Below are positions 1 to 56,104 of a stretch of DNA of 64,000 nt, piece by piece. Within the stretch, counting starts at the first letter, position 1; every line of letters begins with the position of its first letter. The stretch is from Tribonema minus (Eukaryota > Sar > Xanthophyceae > Tribonematales > Tribonemataceae): assembly GCA_017506865.1 (NCBI GenBank), contig JAFCMP010000091.1, positions 1-64,000 of the forward strand. The letters run 5' to 3'. A program made the position numbers and the translations under genes. Below the pieces are notes generated by a model. The model was not told the DNA's origin and searched no databases. It saw only the letters and a program-made list of their open reading frames with translations.

Positions 1-154
1 TTAATCATGGGCAAAGTGTCTTGGCAATCATGTCAAACATGCTGTATCCGAGGGGCGAGAGCCTGCCTGACGTACGCATGCACGGGACATGTTGTCATTG
101 CTATGCCATGCAGAGCGACCTGCAACAAGCGTAACGGAGTACATAAGGAGAATC

Positions 155-3100
155 ATGGCGGATAGCGTATCAAGATCGGCGACGGACAGCTCCGGGGAGG
201 CTGGAACGACCCCGGGAGGCGAAGGGAACGGTGGCGGTGTGCAGCAGCAAGCGCTCGTGCCCCCCGAGCAGCAGCCGGCGACGCAACCCTTCACGTCGTC
301 GGCCGGTCTAACCTCATCAGCGACGTCGAGCGCCGCCCCCTCGACCGTCGCAGTGACGGCGACCACCACCGCCCCCGCAACCGGAGCCGCCCCGGTGTCG
401 CTCCCTGCTTCCACGGACCCCTCCGGCGCGGGTCTTGGCGTCCCGCCTACGACCTCCGCTCCTCAACCCGACTTCAACGAGATACTGCAAGGGCTGCGTC
501 GCGCCCTGCCGCTGATGCCAGAGGGCGCCCTGGCTCAGCTCGCGGGACGCGCCGTCAAGGAGGCGGCCGAGATGACGTCCCCCGTCTCATTTGTCGGCAC
601 TCGTCCGCCGGCCTCATCAGCGCGCCCTTCCTTCACGCCAGGCTTCGCGCCCTTCTACCACGCACCAGACCCTTTCGCCACGCGCACGACTCTGCCTCCT
701 TCCCTCACTGCGGTGCCCACCGCGGCAGAGCTGGAAGCGACGGTCCAGGAGCTTGAGCGCGCGCTGGATCAACGCATCAACACCACCCTCGAGAGCAGCC
801 ACGTGGCCGAGCGCGAGCTCAAGGACGCCGAGCAGCGCGCCGCCGCCGTCGAGCGCGACCGTCGTAACAGCCGCCCCAGCCCTGTGGCGAACCCCTCGCA
901 GCTACAGCTCTCGCTGCTGCAGGGGCAGGAGGCTGAGTACGCTCACCGCCTGGAGGTCGTGCGACGGCAGCAGGCGATCCTGTCGCGTAACCACCACCTG
1001 CTCGTCGAGCGCCTGCACCGCTACACGCGCATCAAGGAGTACCTGCTGGAGGCCAAGCGCGCCGGGCCCCCAGCGCTGCACCAGTTCGTGCAGGAGACTG
1101 CCCCGCGCCTGCTGGCCGATGCGGCGCAGTGGGACGCGCGCGACCTTCGAGAGGACCCCAGCGTCGGCCTCACCGGCGCGGGCCTTCCCTTCGCGCCCCC
1201 ACAGACCACTACTCCGTTCGGCATGGGAGCGCGCGCCAGCGGGAGTCCCTACGGCGTCGCGAACGGCAACGCGCCCCCCCTGCTCAGCGCCACCGTTGGC
1301 ACGTCACCCGCCACGAGCGGCAGCGCGCCCCCCGACGCTCAGCGCGAAGACACTAGCTGGCAGCGCTACTTCAGCCCTACGGCGATCCCAATCACCCTGG
1401 ACGTCGGCGCCACCACGACCTCTCGCCGGCAGTTTGAACAAGCTGCCGAGTACAACCGCGTGCCGACGCGCCATTGGGTCTACGCGCTGCGCAAGTGCCT
1501 GACGGCGGAGCAGCAGGGCTCGATCATCAACGTGCGCAAGGACCCCGTCACTGGAGAGGAGAAGGTGCACACCTGCGGGGAGATGTCCTACAACGAGATA
1601 TGGGACGCCATACAGGAGCTTTACGACAACCCCAGCGGCCGCGCAGACGCGATGATGGAGCTCGCAAACATGCCCTGGGAGCCGCAGCAGACCCCCCGCG
1701 AGTTCGCCACCAAGCTTCTCAAGGCGTCGCAGCGCACCTCGAACATGTCCTCCGCTGACGCCAGCCTGCTCAAGTCCTACTACTTCGCGGCGATGGCGCA
1801 GCCTCTCAAGCAGCTCTTCCACCAAATGCAGCTGATGCGCGAGGACTGGAACCGCATGGTGGACCGCACCCAAGACCTGTACGCGTCCCTCAACGTCACG
1901 CAGAAGGACACGTTCTGCGCCAACCTGACCGCGATCAAGAGCCTTCACTCAGCCACGGCAGCAGCAGTCGAGTTCGGCGCCACCGCCGGCAAGCGGGCGC
2001 GAGCTCACAACCTACGCACGGACGACGGCGACATGGACCTCAGCGACGACGAGACGCCGTCTAGCCTCGCCGCCATCACCCCAACCCCGACCAAGAGCAC
2101 GCCAGCTGCCGCTAAGCCAAAGGGCACTCCCAAGAAGGAGCTCGACCCTTCCGTGAAAATGGCGTGCTGGGGGTGTAGCAAGGAGGTGGCACGCGGAGAG
2201 CTGACGGCCCACAAGAGCGTCTGCGTGCCCTGGCTCAAGAAGCGGCTGGAGAAGCTCAAGAAGGAAGGGAAGCCGCATGATCAGCTTCAGGCCAGGCTGG
2301 AGAAGCTGAGGGGCAACAAGAAGCAGAAAAGTGAGTCCTATGACACTAAGTCTTCTGCAAACTTCATGAGTGGCATGCTTGAGCATGAGCCTGCGCGTGT
2401 GCAATCCAAGGCGGGTCCCGATGCTCACTGCCACAAACTTCAAGTTCAAGTTGCATGCGCATCCCCAAAGGCTAGCAAAGTGGCCGGTGATGCAACTGCT
2501 CAGGTGAACCCAGAGGCTGATCCCGCAGCCTGCGAAGTCACTGGCACGCGTAACCATTTGCTAAGCCGTGAGGTCGGTACTCGCATGCTAGCAGCTATCA
2601 TGTGCGCCTGTTGCGTGGCTAGGTGCAATGACCATGACACCGACGCCAGAGCTGACGCAAAGCGCAAACGCAGCGTGCCGTGCGCGGCGTCTACAGCGGT
2701 AAGTGGGAATGCCGATCTCACTGACCTTGCTTCCGATCTGTGCGCCACCCCCCGTGACACTTTCGTGCACTTGCAGACTAGGAAGGGGGATGCGTGCGCT
2801 CACGACGGAGAACCCGACGTGACGGCCAGACCACTGCGAGTGGCAGAGCTTTGTTGCGGGGTGGGGGGTGTACATAGGGGGTTAGAGGACTTTGCCAGAC
2901 ACACAGGTGTCAAGGCTGAAGTGGTCCTTGCTGTAGATAGGGCCGAATACACATGCGAGGCGTACAAGCACCAGTTCCCTGGCACAGAAGTTCTATGTGC
3001 AGACATCGCCAGTCCAGCAGTGCTCAAGCGCCTCAAGCAGCTGGAACCCGATGCATTCTGGGTCACTGCCCCATGTGTTGACTTCTCGCCCTCGGGCAAG

Positions 3101-6100
3101 GGCGTTGAAGGCGAAGCGGCCAGCGTGTTGCCCTCCGTTGCACAGCTTGCTGTAAATGTACGGCCAAAATTGGTCTTTCACGAGAATGTGCCTCGAATGC
3201 TGTTGTCTGGGGCATGGGGCTGCGCCGACGGCCACATGCGTCAGGCGGGGTATTCGACCTTTGAGGTGCAATTTCGTGGCACTGATGTTGATGGTGGAAG
3301 TTCACGCGAGCGCATCTATACTGTGTCTGCGTGCAACACCCAGGCCACCCCTGCACGTTTTGCCCGCCTGAATGCCCTGTTGAATGAGCGCTTTCGCAGC
3401 AGTACCCCAAAGACTGTGCGCGATTGCACTGGTTGCATGGAGGACACATTTTACTGGGATCCTCGTCAACCGCACCGTGCTGGCGTGCTTTCTACTGACA
3501 TGCCACTGCCTAGCCCTGTGACTCGCCAACCTGGCAAGGGTCCCACAAGGTACGTACAGAGAGCCAAGGATGCCGGTCCTGCAAAGGACGCATTGATACT
3601 CTCGCCTGAACAGGTGATGGAGTGCCTGGGCTACCATGAGCCCTACCCTGAAGGCACACTCACCCAGAGACGCAAGTGGGCCGCTGACCTAGTACAGCCC
3701 GCGGCTGTAAGCGCCCTGATGCAGTGTGTTCATGCCGTTGCCTCTCTGCCCAATTGTTGGGAGAGACCTGCCCCCGCTGGCCCTGACGTAACTCCTGGAG
3801 AGGTAACAGTGCATGATCACACGGCGCCGCCGCCGGAGTGGGTCGTGGACGCATCGCAGCCAGCACTACTGAGGATCGCCGGGACCTGCTCAAGCGCGCT
3901 AGGGAGTGCTGCGAACTGGTGTTGGGAGAAAGGGAGAGCGTTTCTTGCTTCGCTGCGCCAAGGTGAGCCAGTGCAATTAAATGAAGTACAGTGGCAACGC
4001 GGTGACGACGAGTCTGACTCTGATTCTGACTCACCAAGAGTAACCGTTGAGCCAGCAGTGCCTCAGTCGACTGCAACACCCAAGACGCCGATGGTAGAAG
4101 AGAGCGCTAACCCTGACTCTGACTCAGCGACACCACTGCAGACTCGCATGACACTGCACGAGTTGAAACCTAGGTGGGCAGCAAGAGGCAAAGCGCCCAT
4201 GCCACTCCACAGAGTCACCCCGGTAGGGAGGCCACGCAAGAATGGCTTTGTGCACATGACCATGCGCACACAGGTGGGCGATGCCGTGCAAGAGTTTGGT
4301 CTGGATACACTGGTGGATTGCGGCGCGGAGGCTGAGTTCATCAACAAAGATTCAGCGCACAAGCTGCCGCCGGGCACCATCTGCCCTCTGGCTGATGGGG
4401 ACTTCACTACGGTGGAGCTCGCTGACGCCAAGAAGTCGGTACCTGTAGAAGGGGTGGTGCACGCTCAGGTGCGCTTCAAAGACCACCTGCTGACGCACCG
4501 ATTCTACGTCGTGGACCTGCCTTACCAGGCAATCTTAGGGTCAAACTTCTTTGGCAAGTACGGCTCCGTGATCTCCTACGAGCACGGGATGAAATTCTAT
4601 CCCGCTGGCTCGTCAGGCCCCGCTGTGCCCATGCGTGAACGTGCGCGCGTTGGAGCCTTGGAGCCCCCCGAAGCAAACTCCATCAAGATAGGCTCAGCAA
4701 GGGTACACACCAAGGACAAGCCTGTACTGCCAGAACGCAAATATCTTCTCAGAGCAGCCTCAAACCAGGTCATTGACGCTGACACCGCGCACACGCTGGA
4801 AGTGGTGTCTCACCCGCCACTGCAGTGCACAGGTCCTGTAGAGGTGCTGCTAACCCCAGACGTCCCAGAAGCGGTGACGGCCGTGAACAAGTTGGCCGAG
4901 CAAGGCGTTGTGTTGCTGGACTCAGTAGATACTGCCATGCCGAACAAACCACTCAGGCTAATGGCTGAAAACACTTCCACAATGCCAGTGCTCATCCGTA
5001 AGGGAGCAATACTAGGCGCTGTTGAAGCACCGGAGATGGTGTGCGGTCTAGACGTTGACCAAGAGACGCTCACAGCTAACCTCACGCGCATAGCGCTCAG
5101 CCGACTTTCTAGCGACCCCCCAACCGTAAATCAGGTGAAGCCTAGCTCAAATCCCACAGCAACCACACAGGCTGAGGCGGAACGCACCGCTCACAGGCGT
5201 AAGGTAGCTGAAGAGCACAATGCCACCTTAGAGCTCTGCACGGACGAGGAGCTGGCAGACGTGCTGAAGCGGGATGGTAAGGTGATACCTATGTTGGAAG
5301 AGCGCGACAAAGACGGTGTTAAGTACTACGATCGGGTCATGGAAGTGCTACGCCGCAGACGTGCTGCCTTTGCAAAAGACCCCAAAAACCCTAGGGTCAC
5401 GGATCGCTTTGACGTGGACATTGATACCGGAGACGCGGCCCCCATAGCCGACAAGGCGCGGCGTTGGGCCGAGCGCGAGGCCAAAATCATTTTTCAAGCG
5501 ATTCAGGACGAAAGGAAGCGTGGGCAAATCAGACCTGCTAGTGGGCCATGGGCCAGCAACCCTGTGCTGGTGGCTCAAAAGGGCAAGATACGCTTCTGTG
5601 TTGACTACAGACCGCTTAATAAGGTCACAAGACGTGACGAATACGGCTTAGGCAACATGGAGGACTTGATTCAAAAGGTGGCAAGTTCAAGAATTTTCTC
5701 AGCTCTGGACTTTGCCTCAGGCTATAGGCAAATTCCCATGACCAAAGAGTCCTCTTGCAAGACGGCTTTCCGAGGGCCCGATGGCTCCCTATGGGAGTAC
5801 AAGGTCGCGCCGTTTGGACTAGTATGTCTGCCCAGCATTTTCACGCGCTGCATGCACGAGCTGTTAGGCGCTGCCAGACAGACTCATGCGTGCGTGTATG
5901 TGGATGATGTGCTGGTTCACAGCAAAGGGCTTGAAGATCACATAGCTCACTTGGACGATGTGCTGCGTCGCGTGGAGGAGTATGGCATGAGTGTGTCAAG
6001 GCACAAGTGTCAACTCTTCGCCGAGGAAGTGACATACCTAGGTCACAAAGTCGGCCGGTCGGCATTAGGCCGTGTGAAGACAAGGTCAAGGCCATGGTGG

Positions 6101-6106
6101 ACATGA
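155..6106 (+). CDS. Gag-methyltransferase-protease-RT polyprotein, first part of the gypsy element
   Basis: The frame is open from 89, but ATG 155 (context AATCATGGCG) is the likelier start. A Pro/Ser/Ala-rich N-terminus leads to a coiled-coil stretch (about 720-1060) and a capsid-like gag core (about 1420-1950). A C-x2-C-x11-H-x3-C zinc finger lies at 2164-2223. A methyltransferase domain occupies about 2826-3745. The protease motif is LVDCGAE, with its Asp codon at 4316-4318; DCG replaces the usual DTG/DSG. RT begins near 5520, with palm motif SALDFASGYRQI and the catalytic YVDD at 5897-5908. The frame ends at 6106 inside the RT/connection region, right after YLGHKVG, so this is not a natural C-terminus. 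The rest of pol continues in the next frame (see 6007-9663). Confidence 0.85.
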   Translation: MADSVSRSATDSSGEAGTTPGGEGNGGGVQQQALVPPEQQPATQPFTSSAGLTSSATSSAAPSTVAVTATTTAPATGAAPVSLPASTDPSGAGLGVPPTTSAPQPDFNEILQGLRRALPLMPEGALAQLAGRAVKEAAEMTSPVSFVGTRPPASSARPSFTPGFAPFYHAPDPFATRTTLPPSLTAVPTAAELEATVQELERALDQRINTTLESSHVAERELKDAEQRAAAVERDRRNSRPSPVANPSQLQLSLLQGQEAEYAHRLEVVRRQQAILSRNHHLLVERLHRYTRIKEYLLEAKRAGPPALHQFVQETAPRLLADAAQWDARDLREDPSVGLTGAGLPFAPPQTTTPFGMGARASGSPYGVANGNAPPLLSATVGTSPATSGSAPPDAQREDTSWQRYFSPTAIPITLDVGATTTSRRQFEQAAEYNRVPTRHWVYALRKCLTAEQQGSIINVRKDPVTGEEKVHTCGEMSYNEIWDAIQELYDNPSGRADAMMELANMPWEPQQTPREFATKLLKASQRTSNMSSADASLLKSYYFAAMAQPLKQLFHQMQLMREDWNRMVDRTQDLYASLNVTQKDTFCANLTAIKSLHSATAAAVEFGATAGKRARAHNLRTDDGDMDLSDDETPSSLAAITPTPTKSTPAAAKPKGTPKKELDPSVKMACWGCSKEVARGELTAHKSVCVPWLKKRLEKLKKEGKPHDQLQARLEKLRGNKKQKSESYDTKSSANFMSGMLEHEPARVQSKAGPDAHCHKLQVQVACASPKASKVAGDATAQVNPEADPAACEVTGTRNHLLSREVGTRMLAAIMCACCVARCNDHDTDARADAKRKRSVPCAASTAVSGNADLTDLASDLCATPRDTFVHLQTRKGDACAHDGEPDVTARPLRVAELCCGVGGVHRGLEDFARHTGVKAEVVLAVDRAEYTCEAYKHQFPGTEVLCADIASPAVLKRLKQLEPDAFWVTAPCVDFSPSGKGVEGEAASVLPSVAQLAVNVRPKLVFHENVPRMLLSGAWGCADGHMRQAGYSTFEVQFRGTDVDGGSSRERIYTVSACNTQATPARFARLNALLNERFRSSTPKTVRDCTGCMEDTFYWDPRQPHRAGVLSTDMPLPSPVTRQPGKGPTRYVQRAKDAGPAKDALILSPEQVMECLGYHEPYPEGTLTQRRKWAADLVQPAAVSALMQCVHAVASLPNCWERPAPAGPDVTPGEVTVHDHTAPPPEWVVDASQPALLRIAGTCSSALGSAANWCWEKGRAFLASLRQGEPVQLNEVQWQRGDDESDSDSDSPRVTVEPAVPQSTATPKTPMVEESANPDSDSATPLQTRMTLHELKPRWAARGKAPMPLHRVTPVGRPRKNGFVHMTMRTQVGDAVQEFGLDTLVDCGAEAEFINKDSAHKLPPGTICPLADGDFTTVELADAKKSVPVEGVVHAQVRFKDHLLTHRFYVVDLPYQAILGSNFFGKYGSVISYEHGMKFYPAGSSGPAVPMRERARVGALEPPEANSIKIGSARVHTKDKPVLPERKYLLRAASNQVIDADTAHTLEVVSHPPLQCTGPVEVLLTPDVPEAVTAVNKLAEQGVVLLDSVDTAMPNKPLRLMAENTSTMPVLIRKGAILGAVEAPEMVCGLDVDQETLTANLTRIALSRLSSDPPTVNQVKPSSNPTATTQAEAERTAHRRKVAEEHNATLELCTDEELADVLKRDGKVIPMLEERDKDGVKYYDRVMEVLRRRRAAFAKDPKNPRVTDRFDVDIDTGDAAPIADKARRWAEREAKIIFQAIQDERKRGQIRPASGPWASNPVLVAQKGKIRFCVDYRPLNKVTRRDEYGLGNMEDLIQKVASSRIFSALDFASGYRQIPMTKESSCKTAFRGPDGSLWEYKVAPFGLVCLPSIFTRCMHELLGAARQTHACVYVDDVLVHSKGLEDHIAHLDDVLRRVEEYGMSVSRHKCQLFAEEVTYLGHKVGRSALGRVKTRSRPWWT
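2826..3745 (+). other. Cytosine-C5 DNA methyltransferase domain inside the gypsy polyprotein
   Basis: The ordered motifs of the Dnmt/M.HhaI family are visible. Motif I is AELCCGVGGVHRGLE (SAM binding, about 2846-2890). Motif IV is APCVDFSPSGKG with the catalytic Cys codon at 3074-3076. Motif VI is ENV starting at 3182. A motif VIII-like SRERIY lies at 3302-3319. The C-terminal helix with LSPEQVMECLGY and a QRRKWAADLVQPAAV segment fits motifs IX-X. The length (about 300 residues) fits a compact catalytic domain with no regulatory modules. The family transfers methyl groups from SAM to C5 of cytosine. The domain is in frame with gag upstream and protease downstream, and no break is visible within it. 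Activity and target sequence cannot be read from this. Confidence 0.85.
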
Positions 6107-9100
6107 TGCCCCCGCTCGGTAAGGATGGCAAGGTTGACAAACGTCTCATGCAAGTCTTGATGGGATGTTTCAACTACTACAGGCGCTACATTCACCGATT
6201 TGCGTCCATCGCGGCGCCATTGATGGAGTGTACCAGGGACGGTGCTGACATGACATGGAATAAACGCCGTCGAGATGCACTCGCAGAGCTCAAACGCGCG
6301 ATGTCGAGCGCACCCGTTATCATGCACCCAGATTTTGACCTGCCATTCATAGTACACACAGATGCTAGCAAGTTGGCAGTCGCTGGAGTGCTATCCCAGT
6401 TTGTGCCACTTGAGAAGCTTCGAGAGCGGCACAAAGGTTTTCCATGGGCTCACACCCGCCGTGCCAAGACGGTGGATGGTAAGCCAGCCAGAGAGGTAGT
6501 TGTAGCATTTTACAGCAAAGTCAATTCAGTGCAAGACGCAAAGCTAGGTGCCACCGCGCTGGAATGCCTTGCTGTAGTGCTGGCCCTGAACAACTTCCGC
6601 TCATACGTGTGGGGTAGGCCAGTAACCGTCATTACAGATGCGTCGGCACTGCGCTGGTTGCTAAAACTGAATAACCATAATAGCAAACTCCTGCACTGGG
6701 CCATGCGCCTCCAGGAATATGACGTCATGGTCGTACACCGCCCTGGTAAGGACAATGGCAATGCAGACTGCCCCTCACGAATGCCTCAAATGACGGAAAT
6801 CCTGGGCCCCAGAGAGTATGACCACGCTGATGAGCAGTGGCCAGACTGTACGGATGCAGGACCTGCTCCGCCTACTGGGGTACGCTTTGAGAGCGAAGAA
6901 GTCGTGGATTCCCCCGCGAATATAGGCAGGATTGGGGCTTATGCCTCATACCCAGATGGCCCCGGCATGCGCTTTAACAAAGTCGCACAGGTATCCCCAG
7001 ACCTGAGCGAGGCCATGCTCAGACTTAACCCCGCACAAGTGCAAGATGCTTTGTTTGACACCTCGCTTGAAAGCAGCAGTGGGGACGCCGTGCTTTTCAA
7101 AGAAGAGGGAGGTGAGCAGCCGGAGCAGTCGGAGCCGGAGCTGCAGGAGCTGGCGCTGGCGTCAATGCTTTGCAATCTGCGCACCGGAGTGTACCCAGAT
7201 GGCGTGTGGGATAGCTGCGCATCACTCTTGGCACAGCAAACGGGTGAGCGTACCGAAACCGAGAACTGTGAAAGCAGCAGCGAGCAGGAACCTCAACTTC
7301 AAGTAGACATGATGTCAGTTGATAGCCCTGTTCAACCCCCCGCGCCAGCAACCTCGGAACACCCTGGGGACCTTGCAGGAGGAAGCTCAGGTCAGCCCGC
7401 AGTGCTTGAGCGCGATAAATTTGTGCAATGGCAAGGGCGTGACTCTTTCTGCATGGCTGTGAGGAATTACCTAGAGGACCGCAATGAACCTTCTGATGCC
7501 AAGTTGGCAAAGTTCATACCCCAGAACCAAGAATTCTTCACGCTAGAGCCTGATGGCCTGTTGGTGCACTTCGCAGCCAGTCGCCCCAAGAGGGGAGCCC
7601 TGATCACACAGTGGGTCACCCCTGAGGCACTGAAGCCCCTGGTGCTACGCATGTGTCACGATGATGGCAGCGCTCAGCACCCATCGACCGCCGCCACGCA
7701 CACCAAGGTGTTTGAGAACTTCTACTGGCGCGGCATGGGAGCTGACATTCGCGACTACGTGCGCAGTTGCATAGCGTGCCAACAGACCAAACCTCAGACG
7801 ACAGCTCAGTACAAGCAAGTGCTCATGCCCCCTCAGCGCATGTGGCAGCGTCTTCACGTAGACTTCACTGAGCCAGGAGTCATATCTCTTGAGGGGCACC
7901 GCTACCTACTCGTGATAGTGGAAGCCAGGTCTGGCTATTGCTGGATTTTCCCCACTAAAAAAAGATCCGCTGCTGAGGTAGCTCCCCTGCTTGCGAAGGT
8001 GCTGCTTGAATGTGGCACACTGGTGGAGGAGTTGTGCTCGGACGGAGCCAAGGAATTTGTGGGTGCGTTGGTGACTAGCCTCTGCCGGGCCTTTGCTGTT
8101 CAGAAGGTAGAGACTAGCGCGTACCACCCCCAGTCTAACGGTGTCGCTGAGAACTTGAACGGTCGTGTCAAGAGGGCCCTGGCCAGAGTGTGCTCGCACT
8201 ACCAGAACCGTTGGCACGAACAAGTTGACATCGTACAGTTTGCACTGAGGAACACTCCCAGGGAAGAGACAGGCCTTACGCCTTTCTTCTGTGTCTTCGG
8301 TCGCGAGGCCAGATTCCCCCTAGATGCCCTCATCTCTAAGCCAGAGTGCACGACAGATCTGCACATAGAGGTGAAGCGGTTACAAGAGAATCTGAAGCTG
8401 GCAGAGTCTGTCATAGGCGAGGCGTTAAGCTCCAGGGCTGAGCGCATCCAAGCTCGTAACGACAAGATTCAACGCACCCTGCATGTAAGTGTAGGCGACT
8501 ATGTATGGGTCAAAAAGCCGCCCTCTGAAGGACGCGCGAGTGGCCTGGAGGAGCGCTTCACCGGACCCTGGAGGCTGATAGCACCCTACGGTGACTCAGG
8601 GCTGTCATTTCAATGTCAACTCAATGGCGCGCGTGTGCGGCTCACTGATGCACACGTGGAAAACATGAAGCCGTGTCACCCTAGGCCTGCTAGACTGGTC
8701 AGCGACGGAGTACACGCCGCCGTAGACCCAGAGCAGCTGAAAGAACTGGACCTTGATCAGCGGTTACAGAGAATTCTAGACCGCAGGGCTAATGAGGACG
8801 GTAGCTGGTCATACAAGTGGCTGGCACGCGACGGTACCTCGTCTGAGTGGATTCATGAGAAGGAGTTTGCAGAGAGTTTCATAGTGCCGTCCTGGGTGCT
8901 AGACACTTTTCATGCCCTCTATGAGATCCAACACGAAGGTCACATGCCGTCGTACGCAGAACGCCCTAGCCCACGTGAGGACCGCTCACTACCCAAAGAC
9001 GAAGCGTTGAAGCGCTACCCTTGTGGCACTCAGGTGGTAAGGCAAATTTCAGGTGCCGATCCCGAGACCACTGAGTACATTTGGGGCCAAGTGCGCGACT

Positions 9101-9663
9101 TCGTACGATTTAAGTGGCGAGTGCGTTACACGGATGGAATTTGGGAGGACCTGACATCGGCACAGGTACGCTCGGGGAAGTTGCTAGCAGAAGGTGTGCG
9201 AGACAGGCTACGCAGGCTGGCGCGTGAGCGAGGCAAGCCTGACCCTGCTGAGCATGCTGCAGATGTTACAGCTGACCCGCCCCCAGGCGTGCGAGTCACG
9301 GTGTGCCCCCACGTTCCCACCAACTTTGGGCCACTGTACGTCGGGCAAGTACTGCGCTACAGGTTCCCAACGGGCTGGAGCCGTGGCAAACTGCTAAGGC
9401 ACATCTCATCGAACCGTGAGCGCGGGGAGCACGTATTTGATGTAGAGTTCCCCAATACGCGCGGAAACAGGCCGATGGAGAGGCGCCTGAAGCTCCGCCA
9501 AGAGTACTACCGCGACGATCGCAACGCTGAACCTTCCTCGTGGAACCTGCTATTGGCACAGGAAGTCATAGAGCAGCCTGAAACCCCCCACACTCCCATA
9601 GAACCTCAGGTTGCGTTGGGCCAGAATGACCTAGGACCGCGCAAACGCCCGCGTCGCCGTTGA
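6007..9663 (+). CDS. RNase H-integrase-chromodomain part of the gypsy polyprotein
   Basis: This is the continuation of pol in the frame one base back. The first ATG (6007) overlaps the previous frame and is probably not used; true homology starts near GIRPCEDKVKAM at about 6070. RNase H shows HTDASKLAVAG (about 6355) and an ECLAVVLAL segment. The integrase has a zinc-binding H-x-H plus CIAC region (about 7655-7790), then catalytic D (HVDF, about 7855), D (CSDGAKEF, about 8037) and E (GVAENLNG, about 8145). A GPY/F-like segment (RFTGPWRLIAPY) lies near 8560. A chromodomain-like stretch (QRILDRRANEDG, SYKWLARDGTSSEWIHEKEF) lies at about 8762-8870. In chromoviruses such a domain reads histone marks and steers insertion. 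A basic C-terminus ends with KRPRRR before TGA at 9661. Confidence 0.88.
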   Translation: MSTLRRGSDIPRSQSRPVGIRPCEDKVKAMVDMMPPLGKDGKVDKRLMQVLMGCFNYYRRYIHRFASIAAPLMECTRDGADMTWNKRRRDALAELKRAMSSAPVIMHPDFDLPFIVHTDASKLAVAGVLSQFVPLEKLRERHKGFPWAHTRRAKTVDGKPAREVVVAFYSKVNSVQDAKLGATALECLAVVLALNNFRSYVWGRPVTVITDASALRWLLKLNNHNSKLLHWAMRLQEYDVMVVHRPGKDNGNADCPSRMPQMTEILGPREYDHADEQWPDCTDAGPAPPTGVRFESEEVVDSPANIGRIGAYASYPDGPGMRFNKVAQVSPDLSEAMLRLNPAQVQDALFDTSLESSSGDAVLFKEEGGEQPEQSEPELQELALASMLCNLRTGVYPDGVWDSCASLLAQQTGERTETENCESSSEQEPQLQVDMMSVDSPVQPPAPATSEHPGDLAGGSSGQPAVLERDKFVQWQGRDSFCMAVRNYLEDRNEPSDAKLAKFIPQNQEFFTLEPDGLLVHFAASRPKRGALITQWVTPEALKPLVLRMCHDDGSAQHPSTAATHTKVFENFYWRGMGADIRDYVRSCIACQQTKPQTTAQYKQVLMPPQRMWQRLHVDFTEPGVISLEGHRYLLVIVEARSGYCWIFPTKKRSAAEVAPLLAKVLLECGTLVEELCSDGAKEFVGALVTSLCRAFAVQKVETSAYHPQSNGVAENLNGRVKRALARVCSHYQNRWHEQVDIVQFALRNTPREETGLTPFFCVFGREARFPLDALISKPECTTDLHIEVKRLQENLKLAESVIGEALSSRAERIQARNDKIQRTLHVSVGDYVWVKKPPSEGRASGLEERFTGPWRLIAPYGDSGLSFQCQLNGARVRLTDAHVENMKPCHPRPARLVSDGVHAAVDPEQLKELDLDQRLQRILDRRANEDGSWSYKWLARDGTSSEWIHEKEFAESFIVPSWVLDTFHALYEIQHEGHMPSYAERPSPREDRSLPKDEALKRYPCGTQVVRQISGADPETTEYIWGQVRDFVRFKWRVRYTDGIWEDLTSAQVRSGKLLAEGVRDRLRRLARERGKPDPAEHAADVTADPPPGVRVTVCPHVPTNFGPLYVGQVLRYRFPTGWSRGKLLRHISSNRERGEHVFDVEFPNTRGNRPMERRLKLRQEYYRDDRNAEPSSWNLLLAQEVIEQPETPHTPIEPQVALGQNDLGPRKRPRRR

Positions 9664-10332
9664 AGCTGTGCTGACCCTGTGCGTTAGCACTGGAGAGCTG
9701 TGTCATCGTCACGCACCCGGTGCACGCCAGACCGCCTAGGGTTTGACACGCGCCGCGTAGCCGGCCAATGAGGGACTTGAGAGCGTGTACCGTGGTGGTG
9801 ATGATGCGACAATGAACACCGATGCTGTCTTCTGCGTTTAACAAGTATCATAAAACGCCGTGCGTCTCATGGGCGCGCCGTGGACGGCGGCCCTTTCAAA
9901 GAAGAGGGATGATACAAAGTCCATGTCACAGTGCAGTTCAAGTGCTGTGTACACCTTTGACTGTACTGTACAAGTGTACTTCAGGCCAGTTCACCTGAGG
10001 ACCATTCCTAGGAATTTGCTTGGACTGTTCCAGGAACTACTTGCACAGAACAATCTGGGGCAGCATCTCTGTGGCTTGCTTGGGTACTAACTCTTGCTAG
10101 CCAGCTGCTGGACAGCAGGGACTCATTGGAGCTGAGCCATCACCGATACACCAGGTGTGTGGTCTTTTCTCCATGCAAGTGGTTAGCCTACATCCTGAGA
10201 GTGAGCTCCTGTTTCCCAGAAGGGCTTGGCCTGCTCATGGAGCATCCCCAGAGGCCTTTCCTTTCGGATCATATGCCAATTCATGCATGTGTGAGGCACC
10301 ATAATGGCGCGCATGCAACTGATCAGAACACA
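9664..10332. other. Non-coding 3' flank of the gypsy element
   Basis: No convincing coding frame is visible. The first 245 bases are probably element 3' UTR. A purine tract at 9898-9909 is the only candidate polypurine tract, and LTR sequence would begin just after it. No terminal repeat can be confirmed because the partner LTR lies outside the window. Confidence 0.4.
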
Positions 10333-19272: not shown

Positions 19273-22200
19273 CTAGTCTGCGCTGCGCCCTAGGAGTTTG
19301 GATACCGGCGCCGCAACACAGCCCAGCATTCGCGCTCCACGTGTGTATGCCATGACGCGCTCCGCCAACTCCCGCGCCAGCGATATGCTCAGCTCAATGT
19401 GGATCTGACGCTTAGCTAACCCGGCCTTGCGTAACACATCTGCCTCTCCCCCCCCTGAGCACAGTGCTGAGTGCATTGCCAACTCCTTAACAAAAAGGCT
19501 TGTCTGCTTGCCCAGCCGTCCGTACGACTCCTGCACGAATGGCACAAAAGCCCAAGATGACGTCAAGGTGCCGGTGTGGTGCTTGACCTTCGCGTCCTCC
19601 CCCACCCCAGCAGCATAGCCGTCCGTGTTCGAGGCATTTGTTTTGCCTGTCAGGTACGAGCTCGCTGTGGGCGCGCGCACACTTGTGTCTAGCACTATTC
19701 CCTTGTTACGGTATGCACTGCTAAAGTGCAGGCACCCTGGGTCAATGACTGTGTCCGCCCGATACCCCGTTACCTTGAAGACGCTAGCATCCTCATTGCG
19801 GACAATAGAGACATGGTGCTGTCTCAAGATACGCTGTAGGCACCGCTTTTGGGCAGTGTGTGTCGCGTTGTGCCCCCGTATGTGCTGGCTGGGGCAGCTG
19901 ATCGCATGCGTGGAGGTGGGGCTCACGTCACTGCACCGCCATGGGCACACCTCGCCCTGTATGCCCCACCCGTCTATAAAGATCGCAACCAAAATCATCG
20001 TGGCTGCTGCCATACTGGACATGGGCGCGGCACCCGGGCGGTCATTGGCAGCGGGCGGCACGCTCATCCACGCCATTGCCGCGGACGCACGCTGGCTGCG
20101 CAGCTGCGCCAGGACCCGCGCGCTAGCCTGTTGGCGGCGGCGGCTGGTGTCACGCGAGTCACCAATAAGTGTAGCCTGCGTCGGCTTGCCCACAGCACCA
20201 GCCGAGGCAGCCTCTAGGTCCTCCACCAGGCAGTCCTCGTATTGACGTCGAAGAACATTTGAAAGGCCGGCTTGTAGTCCGTGCGTGAAGTGACCGCGCC
20301 GGCGGCGGGGCACTACCTTCCTGCAGATCTCGTCAGCATAGGCCTCCCAGTCGTCGTCGTCAGCCTCCTGCCCGCCGCTGCAGCTGCTTTCTTCCGCGCT
20401 AGTTTGTGTTTTAGCGGGCGTGGAAGAGGCAGCCGCGGCAGCGGCTTGAGGGCCAGGTACGGTCGCCGCCGCAGCGGCCGCCTCGGCGCCAGGCACAATG
20501 CCGTGGGTGTGTGGGGCTGGCTCAGTGGTCCCCGTCTCCGTGACGGCAGTTGCGGCGTAGATCGCTTGCACCGCAGTGGGGAGCGTCGACGCTGCGGCCG
20601 TCGTATCTGCTGCCCACCGTAGCAACGATGCTGGGAGCTGCTCGGCCACAGCTGTGCGTGATTTTTCGCCGCCATCAGCTGTCAGCGCTCGCGTAGAGCG
20701 TCGCACGGCCTCGATGATTGGCGGCAGTCCCTGGTCCTCGCGTATTGCGCATGAGTGCTGCGCGAACCAGGTGACTGCGCCGTGTTCGTCAGTGCCGAGC
20801 CTCAGGGCCCCTGCTGCCACAGTGGCATGAATTATTGCAGGCCGCAGTGTTGTGCATGCCTGGGCCGTGTATGCGGCTGGTGCCAGTAGCCCCAAAAGCG
20901 GCATGCCCAGACCGCCTCGTCGCTCCGGCAACCGTGACGCCCGCAGTGGCACTGCGATGTCCGTGAGTTCTGGCGGGCCCAAGCGCGGCAATACCAGCAC
21001 GCTGCCACTGCTGGCTTCCTCATTGTCACCAGCAGTGCAGGCGGCCAGCAGGTGTGACTTCATGACTGCCGCGGTAGCGCAGCCGTGCAGGTGCAGCATG
21101 CGTTCAAGCGTCCATGCACAGAACCCGTCAAATGCGTGCAGCCATGTCTCACTCAAAGCCGTGTCAACGACCCGAGCTAAGAAGCCCATGCGCTTCGTCA
21201 GTGACCTGCGCAGAATGAACTGTGCTGCCTGTAGGTGATGCCGCGCCATTCCAGCTAGCTGCCACGACAATCGCCATGTCCCTGCGTCAACAAGATGCTT
21301 GCTCATGGCAGCATGCACATAGGCTGGGTGCCCTACCGGTACCCCGACCGACGTAAAGCCCTGACTGGATTCTGGCATGGTGGCGTCCACAAACGGTATG
21401 TCAAGGGCGCGCAGGCGTGCTCTGGCCGCTTCATCAAACACTGTGCCGCGCATGGCGATGGCCAGCGACTTGTCTGGTCGAACGCGTAGGCCCCCTGCCG
21501 CAAGCCGACGGATCACCTCTGCCACCCCAGCGGCCGCTGCATCGTCGAAGTAGGCAGCTTGCAGCACGTTGAGGTCATCCAGGAAAGCGCAGTGCGGGGC
21601 TGGCGGTTCCGCTGTGCTGTGGCCGTAGGCCGGCATACTGCCGGGCGTCGCATTCACTCCATCAGGGTAGAAGAGTAGGAAGGCCGCTGCCACTGCAAAG
21701 TACAGCGGCCCTAGAGGGTCCCCTTGCTGGCACCCTAGGTGGGAGCAGATAATGCGAGCTTCACCGTTCACCTCCACTCGCATCTCTGGGGCAGTGTCAC
21801 CACAGTATACGGACTCAAAGTGCGGGAGCAGCTCCGGACAGAAGAGCATAAGTCCCCGCACAATGGCGGCGCGATCCACACTGTTAAATGCGTTCTCACA
21901 GTCCAGCTGGATTGTGGTGCCATACAGCTCGTGCCACACGCGCGCGCGCGCTGCCACATGCTCGACGCCAGACCGGTATCCTACGCCAAACTGCGACATG
22001 GAGGCCAGTAGCCCCGATATTTTGCCCTTGACACTCCGTGCCGCTGTGGACCCGAGGAGTCTGCGCCAGACACTGGAGCAGGCGATCGGACGCCGCTTCT
22101 GTCCTATGCCTGAGAGGGCCGCGGCGCGGAGAAGCCGTTGCGATTGCTCCGGCAGCAGTTCGGGCTCAACAAGCAGCGTCGTGAACACCTTGGCCAGGTG

Positions 22201-24507
22201 ATGGGCGAATGCCGGTTCCATCACATCCGATTCTGAATCACCAGCTAGTCCTGGCGAGGCACTGCCCACGGGGCGGGTGGCTGCTTTCACTGGTGCACCA
22301 GGCCCAGCGGCCATCAAGAGGTGTTCATAGCGTAGGTCGTCCAGCCCTCCTGCCTTCCCCGCCCCTGCTGCGGACAAGGTCGACAGTATGTCTGTCGCCT
22401 CCACCTCGAGGCGCCGTCCGGCTGCGCTGGCAGCATCCTCAGGCCTATCGCTGCGATCATGCGCCTGACCCGATTCGAAGACGGGACTGCCGCTGCCAGC
22501 GGGCCCGGCGGTCGTTGCCACCCCTGCGCCGTGCAAGCAGTGCCGCCGGGCGTCGCGTACCAGGCCGCGCACATGCTCCATTGGCGTATCGACTACCCCG
22601 GGCCGGGTGCCAGTTTCAGGGTGCTTTGCTGCCAGCACCTGTGCCGTGACCTCGTCTGCTGGGGCGCATGCTTCACGCGCCTCTAGTCGTGCGGCAGCCA
22701 GGCCTACCCCCCGTCGCTTGCCTGAGAGGGCAGCGCATGCTGATTGCTGCCTGGAGTCAGCCTCCGTCCAGTCGGCATCGAAGTTCGTTTGTGCCGACGC
22801 CGTAGCTGCGTTGTTTGGTTTGGGGACCCGCAGCGCCGCTGCTGCTGACAGCGTCTTTCTCAGTAGCTCCGCAAAGTCGCCAGACAGCAACGCTGCCAGC
22901 CGGGCCGCAGGTGGCATACCGGTTCCCTCCGGTTGCCTACCAAAGGCCATTGCTGCTAGCAGGTGCAGCAGCCTGTAGCCGCGCTGCACTAGAGTCTGAG
23001 AAACCTGATGAGCAAACGCCCCGGCACCATGGTGGAGGCGCACCCGTGCCGCCTCACGTGCAGTGTCTGTGGCGTCCGCCAGTAGTCGTGTGGCGTGCTC
23101 CACTAGCCGTGCCCACTGGGTGCACTGCAGCTGAGTGCGGAAGGGGTTGGCAGTCGTGGTGAACCGTAGCAGCAGTAGATCCGCCTCATTGGTCTGGTCA
23201 AGTGCGTGGACGACCGAGGGCGTCGAGAGGTCCCAAGCCAGGGATGCTCGTGCCTGGGGCTTTGAGGGCCTGCCACTGGTGGTGGTGGTCGGGGGGGGCG
23301 GTGACGCGGCATCGTCCGGCGGGTCCAAGTCCATGTCCGCCCATCCCACGGCCGTCCCGTGGGGGGGGCTGCTGTCCTGCAGCCTTAGGCTGTTAGACGG
23401 AGTGCGGCTGCCGGCGCTGCCAGGCGGTGCCGCAGCTGCAGCTGCCGTTCGGCGCCGGCGTTGCGCGCCGGTTGCCGTGGCCGCCGGGCGTTTCTTGCTG
23501 GACTTTGAGTTGGCAGCGCCACTAGCCGGCACCGCCGGTGGCTTTGGAGGTGTCGCTGCGGCAGCCCCCGCCGCCGCGGCCGCGCCGTCGCTACCCGCAC
23601 CCCCGCCCTCGGACTGGCCCGGGGGTACTGCCGGGCGTGCGCGCGTGGGGGCGCTTCCATTCCGTCGACACGTGTGGCATGGCGAGGTCAGCGCGCATTG
23701 CCTCTGCCTCGCGCTGGCTGACATATGGACCAGACCGCAGGCACCTGTGCATGCACTCAGCTTCCTTACCGCCCGTAGGAAGTCTTCTGCCGTGCAACCA
23801 TACATGGTGCTCATCTCCTGCACACGCTTGGCATGGTGTGCCCCAGTGTTGCAGGTACTGCTGCCTGAAGGGGCACGGTCACCGGATGGGTCGTGATCAA
23901 CCTGCTGCCGGATGCCCTTGGCGTATGCTGCCGCCGGATTTTGCTGACAGTGTGATGTGCTCGCCTCAGGGTTCAGCATCGACCTCGTGCAGCTACCACC
24001 GTTGAAGTGGGCCACTACCGGTGCCATGCGGCTCGCAGCTGACAGTTTGCCTCGCTGTTTGCTGTCCTCTTTCTGACCAAGCTGCCAAAGTGCCAGTGTG
24101 CATAGTGGACACCTCAGTGGCTCAGGCTGCTGTGGCAACTGCAGCGCAGTACGGGGCTGTGTCCGACTCGGAGCCGTGATGTGGGTGCTGTCAGCTTGAG
24201 TGGTCGCCGACGCTGTCACAGTGGTTGGCAAGGGCGGAGCTGCCGCAGGGGCGACAAGCAGTTCAAAGTGTCCCACATTTGTATATAGCCCAGGCGGCGT
24301 CCACAGCACATCCAGATGGCAGTCAGGCTGAGCTGGAGTTGCCGGTGCGAATACCGCTGGCAGCCCCATCAGTTGTGCCAGCACCAGCCCTGTTGATTTT
24401 TGCGTGCTGCCAGTGGCCTGAGGCTCGGCCTGCCACACCGTCACCGAGACCGCGTAGACCGCTGCAACAATGGCCCACACAGACAAACCGAGGGGCCGTC
24501 CCCACAC
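19273..24507 (-). CDS. OTU C-terminal half, reverse transcriptase and restriction-like endonuclease of the non-LTR element
   Basis: The frame opens just after a TGA at 24565-24567; 24507 is only a GTG codon, so no natural start exists and the frame continues from the OTU ORF. The first residues complete the OTU fold: a WGRPLGLSVWAI segment, then VGHFELLV with the likely catalytic His (about 24250). RT motifs follow: RPIACSSVWRRL, LDCENAFNSVDR (about 21870-21900), GCQQGDPLGPLYFAVA (about 21695-21740) and FLDDLN (about 21575). The C-terminus has a C-x3-C...H-x4-C zinc cluster (CPWRCSDV...HAISCPSQH, about 19890-19950), then GYRADTVIDPG and GIVLDTSVRAP, a PD-(D/E)xK-like nuclease signature. It would nick target DNA for target-primed reverse transcription. 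Confidence 0.85.
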   Translation of the reverse strand: MWGRPLGLSVWAIVAAVYAVSVTVWQAEPQATGSTQKSTGLVLAQLMGLPAVFAPATPAQPDCHLDVLWTPPGLYTNVGHFELLVAPAAAPPLPTTVTASATTQADSTHITAPSRTQPRTALQLPQQPEPLRCPLCTLALWQLGQKEDSKQRGKLSAASRMAPVVAHFNGGSCTRSMLNPEASTSHCQQNPAAAYAKGIRQQVDHDPSGDRAPSGSSTCNTGAHHAKRVQEMSTMYGCTAEDFLRAVRKLSACTGACGLVHMSASARQRQCALTSPCHTCRRNGSAPTRARPAVPPGQSEGGGAGSDGAAAAAGAAAATPPKPPAVPASGAANSKSSKKRPAATATGAQRRRRTAAAAAAPPGSAGSRTPSNSLRLQDSSPPHGTAVGWADMDLDPPDDAASPPPPTTTTSGRPSKPQARASLAWDLSTPSVVHALDQTNEADLLLLRFTTTANPFRTQLQCTQWARLVEHATRLLADATDTAREAARVRLHHGAGAFAHQVSQTLVQRGYRLLHLLAAMAFGRQPEGTGMPPAARLAALLSGDFAELLRKTLSAAAALRVPKPNNAATASAQTNFDADWTEADSRQQSACAALSGKRRGVGLAAARLEAREACAPADEVTAQVLAAKHPETGTRPGVVDTPMEHVRGLVRDARRHCLHGAGVATTAGPAGSGSPVFESGQAHDRSDRPEDAASAAGRRLEVEATDILSTLSAAGAGKAGGLDDLRYEHLLMAAGPGAPVKAATRPVGSASPGLAGDSESDVMEPAFAHHLAKVFTTLLVEPELLPEQSQRLLRAAALSGIGQKRRPIACSSVWRRLLGSTAARSVKGKISGLLASMSQFGVGYRSGVEHVAARARVWHELYGTTIQLDCENAFNSVDRAAIVRGLMLFCPELLPHFESVYCGDTAPEMRVEVNGEARIICSHLGCQQGDPLGPLYFAVAAAFLLFYPDGVNATPGSMPAYGHSTAEPPAPHCAFLDDLNVLQAAYFDDAAAAGVAEVIRRLAAGGLRVRPDKSLAIAMRGTVFDEAARARLRALDIPFVDATMPESSQGFTSVGVPVGHPAYVHAAMSKHLVDAGTWRLSWQLAGMARHHLQAAQFILRRSLTKRMGFLARVVDTALSETWLHAFDGFCAWTLERMLHLHGCATAAVMKSHLLAACTAGDNEEASSGSVLVLPRLGPPELTDIAVPLRASRLPERRGGLGMPLLGLLAPAAYTAQACTTLRPAIIHATVAAGALRLGTDEHGAVTWFAQHSCAIREDQGLPPIIEAVRRSTRALTADGGEKSRTAVAEQLPASLLRWAADTTAAASTLPTAVQAIYAATAVTETGTTEPAPHTHGIVPGAEAAAAAATVPGPQAAAAAASSTPAKTQTSAEESSCSGGQEADDDDWEAYADEICRKVVPRRRRGHFTHGLQAGLSNVLRRQYEDCLVEDLEAASAGAVGKPTQATLIGDSRDTSRRRQQASARVLAQLRSQRASAAMAWMSVPPAANDRPGAAPMSSMAAATMILVAIFIDGWGIQGEVCPWRCSDVSPTSTHAISCPSQHIRGHNATHTAQKRCLQRILRQHHVSIVRNEDASVFKVTGYRADTVIDPGCLHFSSAYRNKGIVLDTSVRAPTASSYLTGKTNASNTDGYAAGVGEDAKVKHHTGTLTSSWAFVPFVQESYGRLGKQTSLFVKELAMHSALCSGGGEADVLRKAGLAKRQIHIELSISLARELAERVMAYTRGARMLGCVAAPVSKLLGRSAD

Positions 24508-25172
24508 GCCCTCTTCCTGTAGGCGTTGCAGCAGGAGCGTGCGCCCCTGTCCGCGCTGTCCGTTTCATTTGTGCCGTACTCGATTGCGAGGCAGCGAGCG
24601 CGTGTCCCGTACGTGTCGAATTGTTCACGTGTGCACGCAGGTTGGGCTGCTGCATGCGCGGTCAATTGACGCATCGATGACATGCTGGCCCCTTGTTTGC
24701 CCGCCCCCTGCGTGACGAATGCCACCATCCCGTCCAGCAGTGCCTCTCGCATGGCAATCACCAGCGCTGGGGCCGGCAGTCCGTGCTCAACTGCGACGCT
24801 GCCTATGCCGTGTAGAGCTGTATGAATCAGGCAGTTGCCGTTGCCCACGTTGCTCACGGGGCGAAGCTCCCCACCACGTGCTAGCGTCGCTGTGTTTTCC
24901 CCAAGCGCCTGTTTGTGGAGTGCCTGCAGGCCCGTGTGCCAAGTGGAAAACCCATAGTTGGTGGCTTTTGCCAGCGCGTCTTGCTGCTCCTCCACGGTGA
25001 CTGTATGGCACACGGTTGAGGGTATCCGGGTCGCCACCGTCACGGTGGTGACCTTCGCCGGCCCGGATATTGGTGCTGAGGGGGCAGAGGCACCGCCCCT
25101 CGGCGGTGTGGTGGCTGGTGCCAGGGGTGCACGAGAATTGTCGCACCGGGCCTGTCGCTCCTGCGTCCGCCG
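24441..25172 (-). CDS. OTU-type cysteine protease, N-terminal half (non-LTR element)
   Basis: The frame is open from 25172, immediately after the TGA that ends the upstream ORF and in the same frame, to 24441. The first methionine-like codon is at 25043. The segment VGNGNCLIHTALHGIG (about 24820-24865) matches the OTU signature G-D/N-G-N-C-L, with the Cys as nucleophile. A helix with IAMREALLDGMVAFVTQG follows. The His half of the domain is in the other frame (24507-19273). The switch lies at a GGGG run near 24550, where one extra G would join CLAIEYGTNETDSADRG to LLLQRLQEEGVWG. OTU proteases cleave ubiquitin-like linkages or polyproteins. Residues after about 24545 in this frame are probably out of frame. 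Confidence 0.75.
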   Translation of the reverse strand, partial: RRTQERQARCDNSRAPLAPATTPPRGGASAPSAPISGPAKVTTVTVATRIPSTVCHTVTVEEQQDALAKATNYGFSTWHTGLQALHKQALGENTATLARGGELRPVSNVGNGNCLIHTALHGIGSVAVEHGLPAPALVIAMREALLDGMVAFVTQGAGKQGASMSSMRQLTAHAAAQPACTREQFDTYGTRARCLAIEYGTNETDSADRGARSCCNAYRKRACGDGPSVCLCGPLLQRSTRSR

Positions 25173-55010: not shown

Positions 55011-55213
55011 GACGAGTGCTTGTGCGCGGGAGACATCACAGTGACTCTGTCAAAAGGGCCCGCATCCTTTGGGCTGGCACTGTGCGCAATGGCTTGTCAG
55101 GGTGCCTACTGGCAGGGCTGGGCATCTGAGCGTCGGTGCTCAAAACGCCTTGCATTCCTCTTCTGCCAGAATGCATGTAAACGGTGTCACCAAGGGCAAG
55201 CACAGCAGCGCGC

Positions 55214-56068
55214 ATGGACCCGAGTAGTTCCCTGTGCATCAACTTCTTTCACAGAGCATCCATTCGCTGCACCACAGCTTGGGCACCGGGGCATACTACT
55301 ACTAGTCACAGGCTGTGGGACGTCTCCAACCTGCAGCCGATCGCCTTTTCATTCCGCGATCCGGCCACTCGCAGCGGCAAGGCGACTGCGAGGTCGTATC
55401 AGGCCCTGTATACGGGTTTTAAGCTGATGCGGGCAGCCCTCAGGCTGGCGGAGCTGATCGGGCTCGGGCTCACGGAGCTTCCGCAGGGCTCGCGGACCTT
55501 CATGTCGGAAATGGAGGTCTGCGAGGTCATGCTCGCAAAGTTTGAGATGCTGGTGGTACACCAGGAAGGGGTCACGATCTCGGACGCAGATCTGGCGGCC
55601 ATCCAGGGGGCCATCCACTCGGACTTGGACGAGTGGACCAGCAACCTGGACGCGCTGTCGACGAGTCTGCTCCAGCACCACCGGTTGGCCCCCCCCTTTG
55701 GGAGCGGCGAGGCACTGGACGTGCCGGACATCCCGACGGTGGCGTGGACCAACGCAGCTCGCGCGCTGGAGGTCAACGGGGACATAGCGGCGCGAGCGGT
55801 GGCGGCGGCGCGCAAGCGCAAGTACGACGGCGCGTTCCGGGGCGGCGGCAGACCCGTCGGCTCGGGGGGCGGCGGCGCGGGTGCAGGTAGGGGCGCTGGC
55901 GCAGCGGCGGGAGCAGGAGGCACGCGCTCACAGCCGCGGGGAGCGCCGGCGAACTGCCCTAAGGCTTATGGTGGTTGCTGGGTGTGGTGGAGGCACGTGA
56001 AGGAGCAGAACCCAGTCCCGTGCAACGTCGTCCCAGGGCCCTGCAAGTACCGCCACTCCGACACCTAG
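55214..56068 (+). CDS. Gag-like ORF of the DIRS-like element
   Basis: The frame is open from 55184; ATG 55214 is the first ATG. A helical region (LMRAALRLAELIGLGLTELP, EVCEVMLAKFEMLVVHQEG) is followed by a Gly/Ala/Arg-rich linker (about 55845-55940). The C-terminus is Cys/His-rich: CPKAYGGCWVWWRHVKEQ then CNVVPGPCKYRH, a C-x6-C...C-x7-C-x3-H arrangement suited to zinc and RNA binding. The stop is TAG at 56066-56068. The RT frame continues in the same phase after it, so an active copy may use readthrough or a separate start at 56105. Confidence 0.7.
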   Translation: MDPSSSLCINFFHRASIRCTTAWAPGHTTTSHRLWDVSNLQPIAFSFRDPATRSGKATARSYQALYTGFKLMRAALRLAELIGLGLTELPQGSRTFMSEMEVCEVMLAKFEMLVVHQEGVTISDADLAAIQGAIHSDLDEWTSNLDALSTSLLQHHRLAPPFGSGEALDVPDIPTVAWTNAARALEVNGDIAARAVAAARKRKYDGAFRGGGRPVGSGGGGAGAGRGAGAAAGAGGTRSQPRGAPANCPKAYGGCWVWWRHVKEQNPVPCNVVPGPCKYRHSDT

Positions 56069-56104
56069 GGGGGCGGGCCCCTGAGCCTGCGGGAGCGGGG
56101 GCCG

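Follow-up and report, generated by a model that had tools for sequence, protein, structure and literature searches.

Hosts silence transposons by cytosine methylation, and a retrotransposon that brings a cytosine methyltransferase of its own is therefore a puzzle, of which few cases are known. This question is raised by the first 64,000 nucleotides of contig JAFCMP010000091.1 (forward strand, assembly GCA_017506865.1; hereafter the window) of the xanthophyte Tribonema minus (Stramenopiles), which open with what is almost certainly a Ty3/gypsy gag-pol element carrying a C5-cytosine methyltransferase (MTase) between gag and protease. The 158-Mb genome of this alga holds at least ~202 loci of one MTase clade, distributed over many families, with open full-length frames, identical pairs of long terminal repeats (LTRs) and clear selection. 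The best overall explanation, which we consider probable, is a recently active Ty3/gypsy clade in which the MTase is inherited, is under selection and may methylate the element's own complementary DNA (cDNA). Since many intact, selected MTase copies are present in one genome, the role that the enzyme plays for the element can be tested through methylation sequencing, both of cDNA and of the genome.

The element occupies positions 1..10271 of the window, on the forward (+) strand like all of its features given below, and its extent was established by alignment to another copy of the family (C4). Two open reading frames (ORFs) encode its domains, as delimited by the ORF list and Pfam. The first (71..6106, 2011 aa) comprises a gag region, the MTase, an aspartic protease (PR) and part of the reverse transcriptase (RT), within which the frame ends; the second (5935..9663) comprises the RT end, RNase H (RH), the integrase (IN) and a C-terminal tail. 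The MTase domain (2826..3745) matches PF00145 at residues 923-1108 of the first ORF (E 1.2e-16). No gag family was matched by Pfam in this ORF, and the gag region is named from its position and from a zinc-finger-like stretch at its end (CWGCSKEVARGELTAHKSVC, C-x2-C ... H-x3-C, 2165..2224) that was read off the translation and has no Pfam match. The protease region (4304..4555, residues 1412-1495, DCGAE) presents a weak Pfam match (E 0.11), and the aligned region scores better in the related family C (E 0.00025) and in the public protein P0002 (E 0.00091). The part of the RT lying in the first frame (5579..6052, residues 1837-1994) matches PF00078 (RVT_1; E 1.8e-32), RNase H (6256..6720) matches PF17919 and PF17917, and the integrase (7621..8130) combines an H2C2 zinc finger (PF17921, E 3.7e-18) with an rve core whose PF00665 match (E 1.6e-7) scores 31.9 bits, just below the cut-off of 32.6. 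Across the two ORFs the order is gag region-MTase-PR-RT-RH-IN, which contains the PR-RT-RH-IN order of Ty3/gypsy elements. The PF00145 match and this domain order confirm the proposal of a first-pass annotation of the window, namely a gypsy-borne C5-MTase in one frame between gag and protease.

The window copy is incomplete. Its 5' LTR is absent because the contig begins inside the element: in the alignment to C4, position 1 falls ~513 bp inward of the 5' LTR end of that copy, which spans ~11.15 kb in total. Furthermore, its frame is broken inside the RT, since the two overlapping ORFs lie in different frames. A single open frame is present in three further copies of the family (C442, 3165 aa; C4, 3176 aa; C513, 3501 aa). 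The 3' LTR (9910..10271, 362 bp, TG...CA) was delimited by alignment to the LTRs of C4 and C513, differs by 1 mismatch in 363 from the 5' LTR of each, and also aligns to the C4 3' end. It is adjoined by a polypurine tract (AAAGAAGAGGGA, 9898..9909). The LTRs of C4 and C513 are likewise 362 bp long with TG...CA ends, and these two copies show 4-bp target-site duplications (TCTG and CAAT) and 0 mismatches between both LTRs of each copy; with such identical LTR pairs, the clade has been transposing recently. A third copy compared, C434, showed no LTR at the place examined. The sequence directly after the LTR, where a tRNA primer-binding site is expected, starts with TGG and was matched to no tRNA; the 64-kb window contains 0 tRNA genes, and an Rfam scan of it returned 0 matches at gathering thresholds.

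The association of MTase and element recurs throughout the genome. The PF00145 profile gave 123 scored matches in the assembly, and 21 pieces are 92-100% identical to the window MTase. The MTases of families A (that of the window), M and D, used as queries, gave 202 pieces that merged into 190 loci, and a family C query added 12 places read by eye (C506, C508, C56, C20, C87, C180, C272, C292, two on C550, C203 and C397), for a total of at least ~202 related MTase loci, partial ones included; all of these search counts are lower bounds. Among the best 150 of 472 RT candidates, to which the RT analysis refers, 131 have a related MTase no more than 9 kb upstream in the same orientation, at a distance of ~2.4-3.3 kb in 130 of the 131 pairs and ~6 kb in one. 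Four more (those on C506, C508, C56 and C20) gain an MTase with the family C query, raising the figure to 135 of 150.

We designated elements with the order gag-MTase-PR as type 1, which includes families A, B, C, D, D3, M and others. The open polyproteins of B, C, D and M present PF00145, RT, RNase H and integrase in the same order, and D3 (L076) and locus L077 were assigned by reading and alignment. Relative to family A, identity of the MTase is 64% in B, 34-37% in C, D, D3 and M, and 45-48% in the proteins P0002 and P0003, with corresponding RT values of 90%, 53-61% and 73-77%; gag-region identity is 24-36%, often over short stretches. The clade seems to extend beyond this assembly, since P0002, P0003 and P0028 derive from other public contigs (ENA, JGI) and, among the scored matches to the window MTase in the assembly, no full-length one lies at 45-48%. 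In the RT tree, type 1 and P0028-P0030 form one clade with 100/100 support. P0029 and P0030 were considered as sister elements without an MTase, but both are incomplete, beginning downstream of the expected MTase end or close to it, and are uninformative. The groupings of the MTase mostly match those of RT and integrase: the MTase tree shares (A,B) and the D group with the RT tree, and (P0002,P0003) and the D group with the integrase tree, while in this comparison the integrase tree does not resolve (A,B) and its RT counterpart does not resolve (P0002,P0003).

The key residues of the enzyme, whose loss in all copies the first-pass annotation had named as a possible objection, are preserved: the catalytic Cys, the Glu-Asn pair and both RxR arginines are kept in 44 of 44 type 1 rows. 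Some of these rows are near-identical copies, three are database proteins, and the window is represented by two (WIN and L009). In 11 of the 44, Ser takes the place of the proline that precedes the catalytic Cys. The same Cys, Glu-Asn and arginines are invariant across ten diverse families at 29-64% identity. Estimates of dN/dS, which are rough with synonymous sites near saturation, are 0.139 (D/D3) and 0.186 (A/B) for the MTase, compared to 0.418 and 0.486 for the gag region, 0.124 and 0.072 for the protease, and 0.037 and 0.024 for RNase H; the RT value is 0.017 in D/D3 and saturated in A/B. Since its dN/dS lies below that of the gag region and above those of RT and RNase H, the MTase is clearly constrained, to a degree between the two. 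Six further MTase pairs gave 0.105-0.138 within B and 0.140-0.257 within the D group; A/B pairs gave 0.143-0.185, and pairs within A gave 0.083 (A_win/A_L025) and 0.188 (A_L024/A_L025). Very close pairs are uninterpretable (A_win/A_L022, 0.648 on 3 changes; A_win/A_L024, 0 synonymous and 5 non-synonymous changes), and the A/C pair is saturated.

C5-MTases are described by a standard series of numbered motifs with canonical forms, such as the GN-type motif X. In the window MTase, motifs I (ELCCGVGG), II (LAVD), IV (TAPCVDFS), VI (ENV) and VIII (SSRERIY) can be read from the sequence, and the motif set of the first-pass annotation stands for I, IV with its PC, VI and VIII. A PF00145 score above the cut-off and a complete predicted fold place the domain in the C5-MTase family. 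The AlphaFold2 model, calculated from an alignment of the window MTase with 23 database proteins, covers the catalytic fold (mean pLDDT 86, pTM 0.85). Foldseek ranks DNMT2 and HhaI at the top for this model, and VIA-align scores are 28.4 for HaeIII, at most 27.9 for HhaI, at most 26.7 for DNMT1 and 23.4-25.6 for DNMT2. By sequence, the best PDB matches are DNMT2/TRDMT1 (E 1.2e-9 with the window sequence alone, 2e-14 with a profile), with matches also to HhaI-type enzymes, weakly to DNMT1, and to phage MTase families. A profile (A1) reached 39 distinct PDB sequences at E<=0.01, comprising DNMT2, bacterial, prophage and Entamoeba MTases and chains named DNMT1 (some of them plant ZMET2); no chain named DNMT3 was among these 39, and our trees held no Dnmt3 sequence. 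These comparisons suggest that the element MTase is DNMT2/HhaI-like and not visibly a Dnmt3. A DNMT2-like frame of the assembly (L004, named by eye, N-terminal part only) formed a long branch that found no place in the tree and lay apart from the element MTases. We also looked for a relative among phages and large viruses and discarded the idea: a tblastn search of phages yielded 9 records that all fell in the under-60% band, with 24% over 91% of the query for the one of best coverage, and 0 of 49 pattern matches in viral contigs proved to be a relative.

What might such an enzyme do for the element? With somewhat less than even confidence, we propose that it methylates the element's cDNA as an "own" mark, a scheme in which we infer catalytic activity, a DNA substrate, action on cDNA within the particle and an advantage for the element alike. 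The MTase would be made within the single Gag-MTase-PR-RT-RH-IN polyprotein, and the element protease would free it inside the particle. It is expected there, near the reverse-transcribed cDNA, because open copies encode it in one polyprotein with the gag region and pol. It would then methylate cytosines of cDNA that has just been synthesised, either ahead of integration or during it, and the resulting copy would thereby bear a mark that the host methylation system treats as "own". Such a host system is plausible, since T. minus encodes DNMT5 and HELLS according to a 2023 survey (PMC10538959, available portion), which also lists a DNMT4-like protein and mentions no MTase borne by an element. 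Methylation of cDNA has been proposed for the Dnmt3 borne by DIRS elements, and CG methylation by that Dnmt3 was shown in yeast (de Mendoza 2018, PMC5890265, available portion).

Several observations weigh against this explanation. The motif X region of the window copy, also listed by the first-pass annotation, is VQPAAV, which corresponds loosely at best and is unlike the canonical GN-type; of the 44 type 1 rows, 42 retain the motif I glycines and 41 the motif II Asp. The MTase is less constrained than RT (D/D3) and RNase H, and than the protease in A/B. For 15 of the best 150 of 472 RT matches no upstream MTase was found, be it absent, decayed, cut off or unscored, and these leave room for relatives without an MTase. 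The MTase tree joins family C to D and M (81/87; 99/93 with more families), but the RT tree joins it to A (88/93), and because of this difference an MTase swap involving family C, in place of simple common descent, is possible. Furthermore, decay of CpG was considered as a trace of self-methylation and gave no clear signal: the element is not depleted in CpG (observed/expected 0.845 versus 0.76 in the rest of the window), and CpG-type transitions account for 64 of the 236 mismatches in comparisons with 18 A copies (36 of 102 for the most distant copy), with no clear excess over the ~31% of eligible positions. Finally, the nearest solved proteins by sequence include DNMT2, a tRNA MTase, as well as HhaI, and an RNA substrate is thus possible.

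This last point bears on the view, which we hold to be quite unlikely, that the MTase modifies element RNA or the tRNA primer and not DNA. The DNMT2/TRDMT1 matches reported above and the position of the domain next to the gag region are in its favour, as is the precedent of SymbioLINE, for which the available text of de Mendoza 2018 (PMC5890265) raises an RNA substrate. Action in trans on host chromatin, for instance by spreading default methylation or by competing with silencing marks, is unlikely in our estimation: a copy number of at least ~202 loci and a tail with weakly supported chromatin-reader-like modules speak for it, but the domain lies within the polyprotein, where packaging would be expected.

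Retention of the domain for a non-catalytic purpose, such as RNA/DNA binding or particle structure, would suit its location between the gag region and the protease, but binding would not require the catalytic cysteine, and the Cys, Glu-Asn and RxR residues are kept in every one of the 44 type 1 rows, which makes this explanation very improbable. That a host or viral MTase gene landed by chance in a single element copy is an explanation with virtually nothing to recommend it, even though the genome does contain free-standing MTase frames (L001 and L002). The copies rule out such a single-copy capture, which the first-pass annotation had proposed to recognise by copies lacking the domain: the insertion point is common to the copies, the MTase is upstream of the RT in 135 of the best 150 of 472 candidates, related loci number at least ~202, and the L001 and L002 MTases cluster with bacterial MTases, apart from those of the elements. 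Methylation of the element's own cDNA is the reading we prefer.

Compared by description with known systems, the T. minus element has its closest parallel in KnitGypsy-Dnmt3 of Klebsormidium nitens, which, according to the available portion of PMC5890265, also places a C5-MTase with conserved key residues and under purifying selection (Ka/Ks<0.2) in a Ty3/gypsy coding frame. There, however, a Dnmt3 lies in the Pol ORF of an element with a DIRS-like repeat arrangement, in a charophyte host and with fewer copies than in Symbiodinium, whereas here a DNMT2/HhaI-like MTase precedes the protease of an element with ordinary LTRs and at least ~202 loci in a stramenopile. The same text describes hundreds of retroelement-borne MTases in Symbiodinium (SymbioDIRS-Dnmt3 and SymbioLINE-Dnmt), of which the SymbioLINE MTases are also an orphan lineage, but these belong to DIRS and LINE elements of a dinoflagellate and not to Ty3. 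It further describes Dam-like MTases in DIRS elements, which are likewise retroelement-borne DNA MTases but are structurally unrelated adenine enzymes of tyrosine-recombinase elements. Among ochrophytes, Ectocarpus Gypsy families carry added chromo, Tudor or NADAR domains, with a Tudor-carrying homologue in Tribonema minus; in the portion of that source available (PMC12477816), a C5-MTase in Gypsy is not described, and an N4C/N6A-kind DNA MTase resides in a Sola1 DNA transposon. DNMT3 in streptophyte and dinoflagellate retrotransposons, together with orphan DNMTs, is treated in the accessible text of PMC12344493, the main text of which contains 0 occurrences of "tribonema" or "stramenopile". 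Our full-text literature searches, whose scope excluded most subscription papers, gave among the papers listed no report of this element or of one from a xanthophyte, which fits its earlier description as little-described.

C5-MTases also occupy two other places in other Ty3-type elements of this genome. Type 2 elements (families E and F) have the order PR-MTase-RT-RH-IN-chromodomain, with the protease and upstream part of E assigned by reading alone; their RT is 31-32% identical to that of A, the F MTase query gave 121 matching pieces, and the Pfam Chromo cut-off (25.1) is passed by E (29.2), with F below it (24.0). Type 3 (family J, one locus, L078) presents RT-RNase H-MTase, a stop codon and then the integrase, with an RT 21-25% identical to the others and on a very long branch in the RT tree. 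A 3030-aa protein from a 14.7-kb ENA contig (P0050) is a Ty3-type polyprotein with the order RT-RH-MTase-PHD-IN. Constraining all element MTases to one clade gave p 0.454 in the approximately unbiased (AU) test, such that a single origin was neither supported nor excluded; for this tree we dropped DNMT2_L004N (long branch) and the near-duplicates t_D4 and K_L062 and added P0028 and P0050, its bacterial rows were retrieved with element MTases as queries, and it lacked Dnmt1, Dnmt3 and Dnmt5. It is possible, if doubtful, that C5-MTases were acquired in separate events by at least three Ty3 lineages of a single stramenopile genome, at different points of the polyprotein (gag-MTase-PR, PR-MTase-RT and RNase H-MTase-IN), for self-methylation of cDNA before integration; if so, cytosine self-methylation would be a recurrent retroelement strategy in this host.

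Outside these elements, L001 (G000:C223:936374-939871), L002 and L003 are free-standing C5-MTase frames, and L001 adjoins a frame that by eye resembles a dNMP kinase, an arrangement as in large DNA viruses. Another C5-MTase lies in a 1104-aa frame (3-3314) of the 4.5-kb stretch L079 (G000:C312), a frame without RT or integrase by Pfam, and L062 holds a near copy of that MTase.

The element was formerly ascribed to a chlorophyte, an ascription rejected in favour of T. minus by the T. minus protein P0004 (JKP88DRAFT_354395), which is identical to the window frame at 206 of 208 and 113 of 113 residues and also matches parts of ORF 5935-9663. Two light-harvesting proteins proved uninformative as to the host. 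P0004 is the only named protein among the 4 matching the MTase region of the window frame. Its gene model is a mosaic of element pieces fused to an EGF-like protein, which skips most of the MTase and retains a 37-residue stretch of it near the C-terminal end (33/37 identical). That a public gene model splices most of the enzyme away shows how such domains escape notice.

The designation "chromovirus-like" is not supported for the window element: no Pfam Chromo match was found in ORF 5935-9663 at E<=1. The C-terminal tail (8425..9660) is predicted, in a low-confidence model (mean pLDDT 51), to consist of beta-rich modules, possibly chromo/Tudor-like by weak fold matches; with this confidence and no fold match at E<=0.001, a chromo/Tudor reader function was set aside as weakly supported. 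In D and P0002, a Tudor family scores below its cut-off.

The 16 bases at 9894-9909 that include the polypurine tract (TTTCAAAGAAGAGGGA) recur exactly at 7095-7110, within the coding sequence that separates RNase H from integrase, and family B (L070) likewise has this second copy, in a weakly conserved linker; the purine stretch at 7095-7110 may be a central polypurine tract. In C, D, D3, D4, E and F (182-1246 bases past the ORF compared), no shared 13-mer rich in purines was found. The active-site triplet of such proteases is usually D-T/S-G. Only P0002 and P0028 conform, with DSG; A has DCG, D has DPG and M has DNG, and polyprotein processing may be unusual.

Two other putative retroelements were noted in the window. 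Positions 55181-60109 (+) appear by eye to hold a tyrosine-recombinase retroelement, with an RT-like part followed by a recombinase-like one (HSGRVGGATAM...GRWKS); Pfam at E<=0.01 found no match in three frames scanned there (56069-60106). Positions 19273-24564 (-) contain a 1763-aa frame with an RT (PF00078, E 5e-7), LINE-like by eye.

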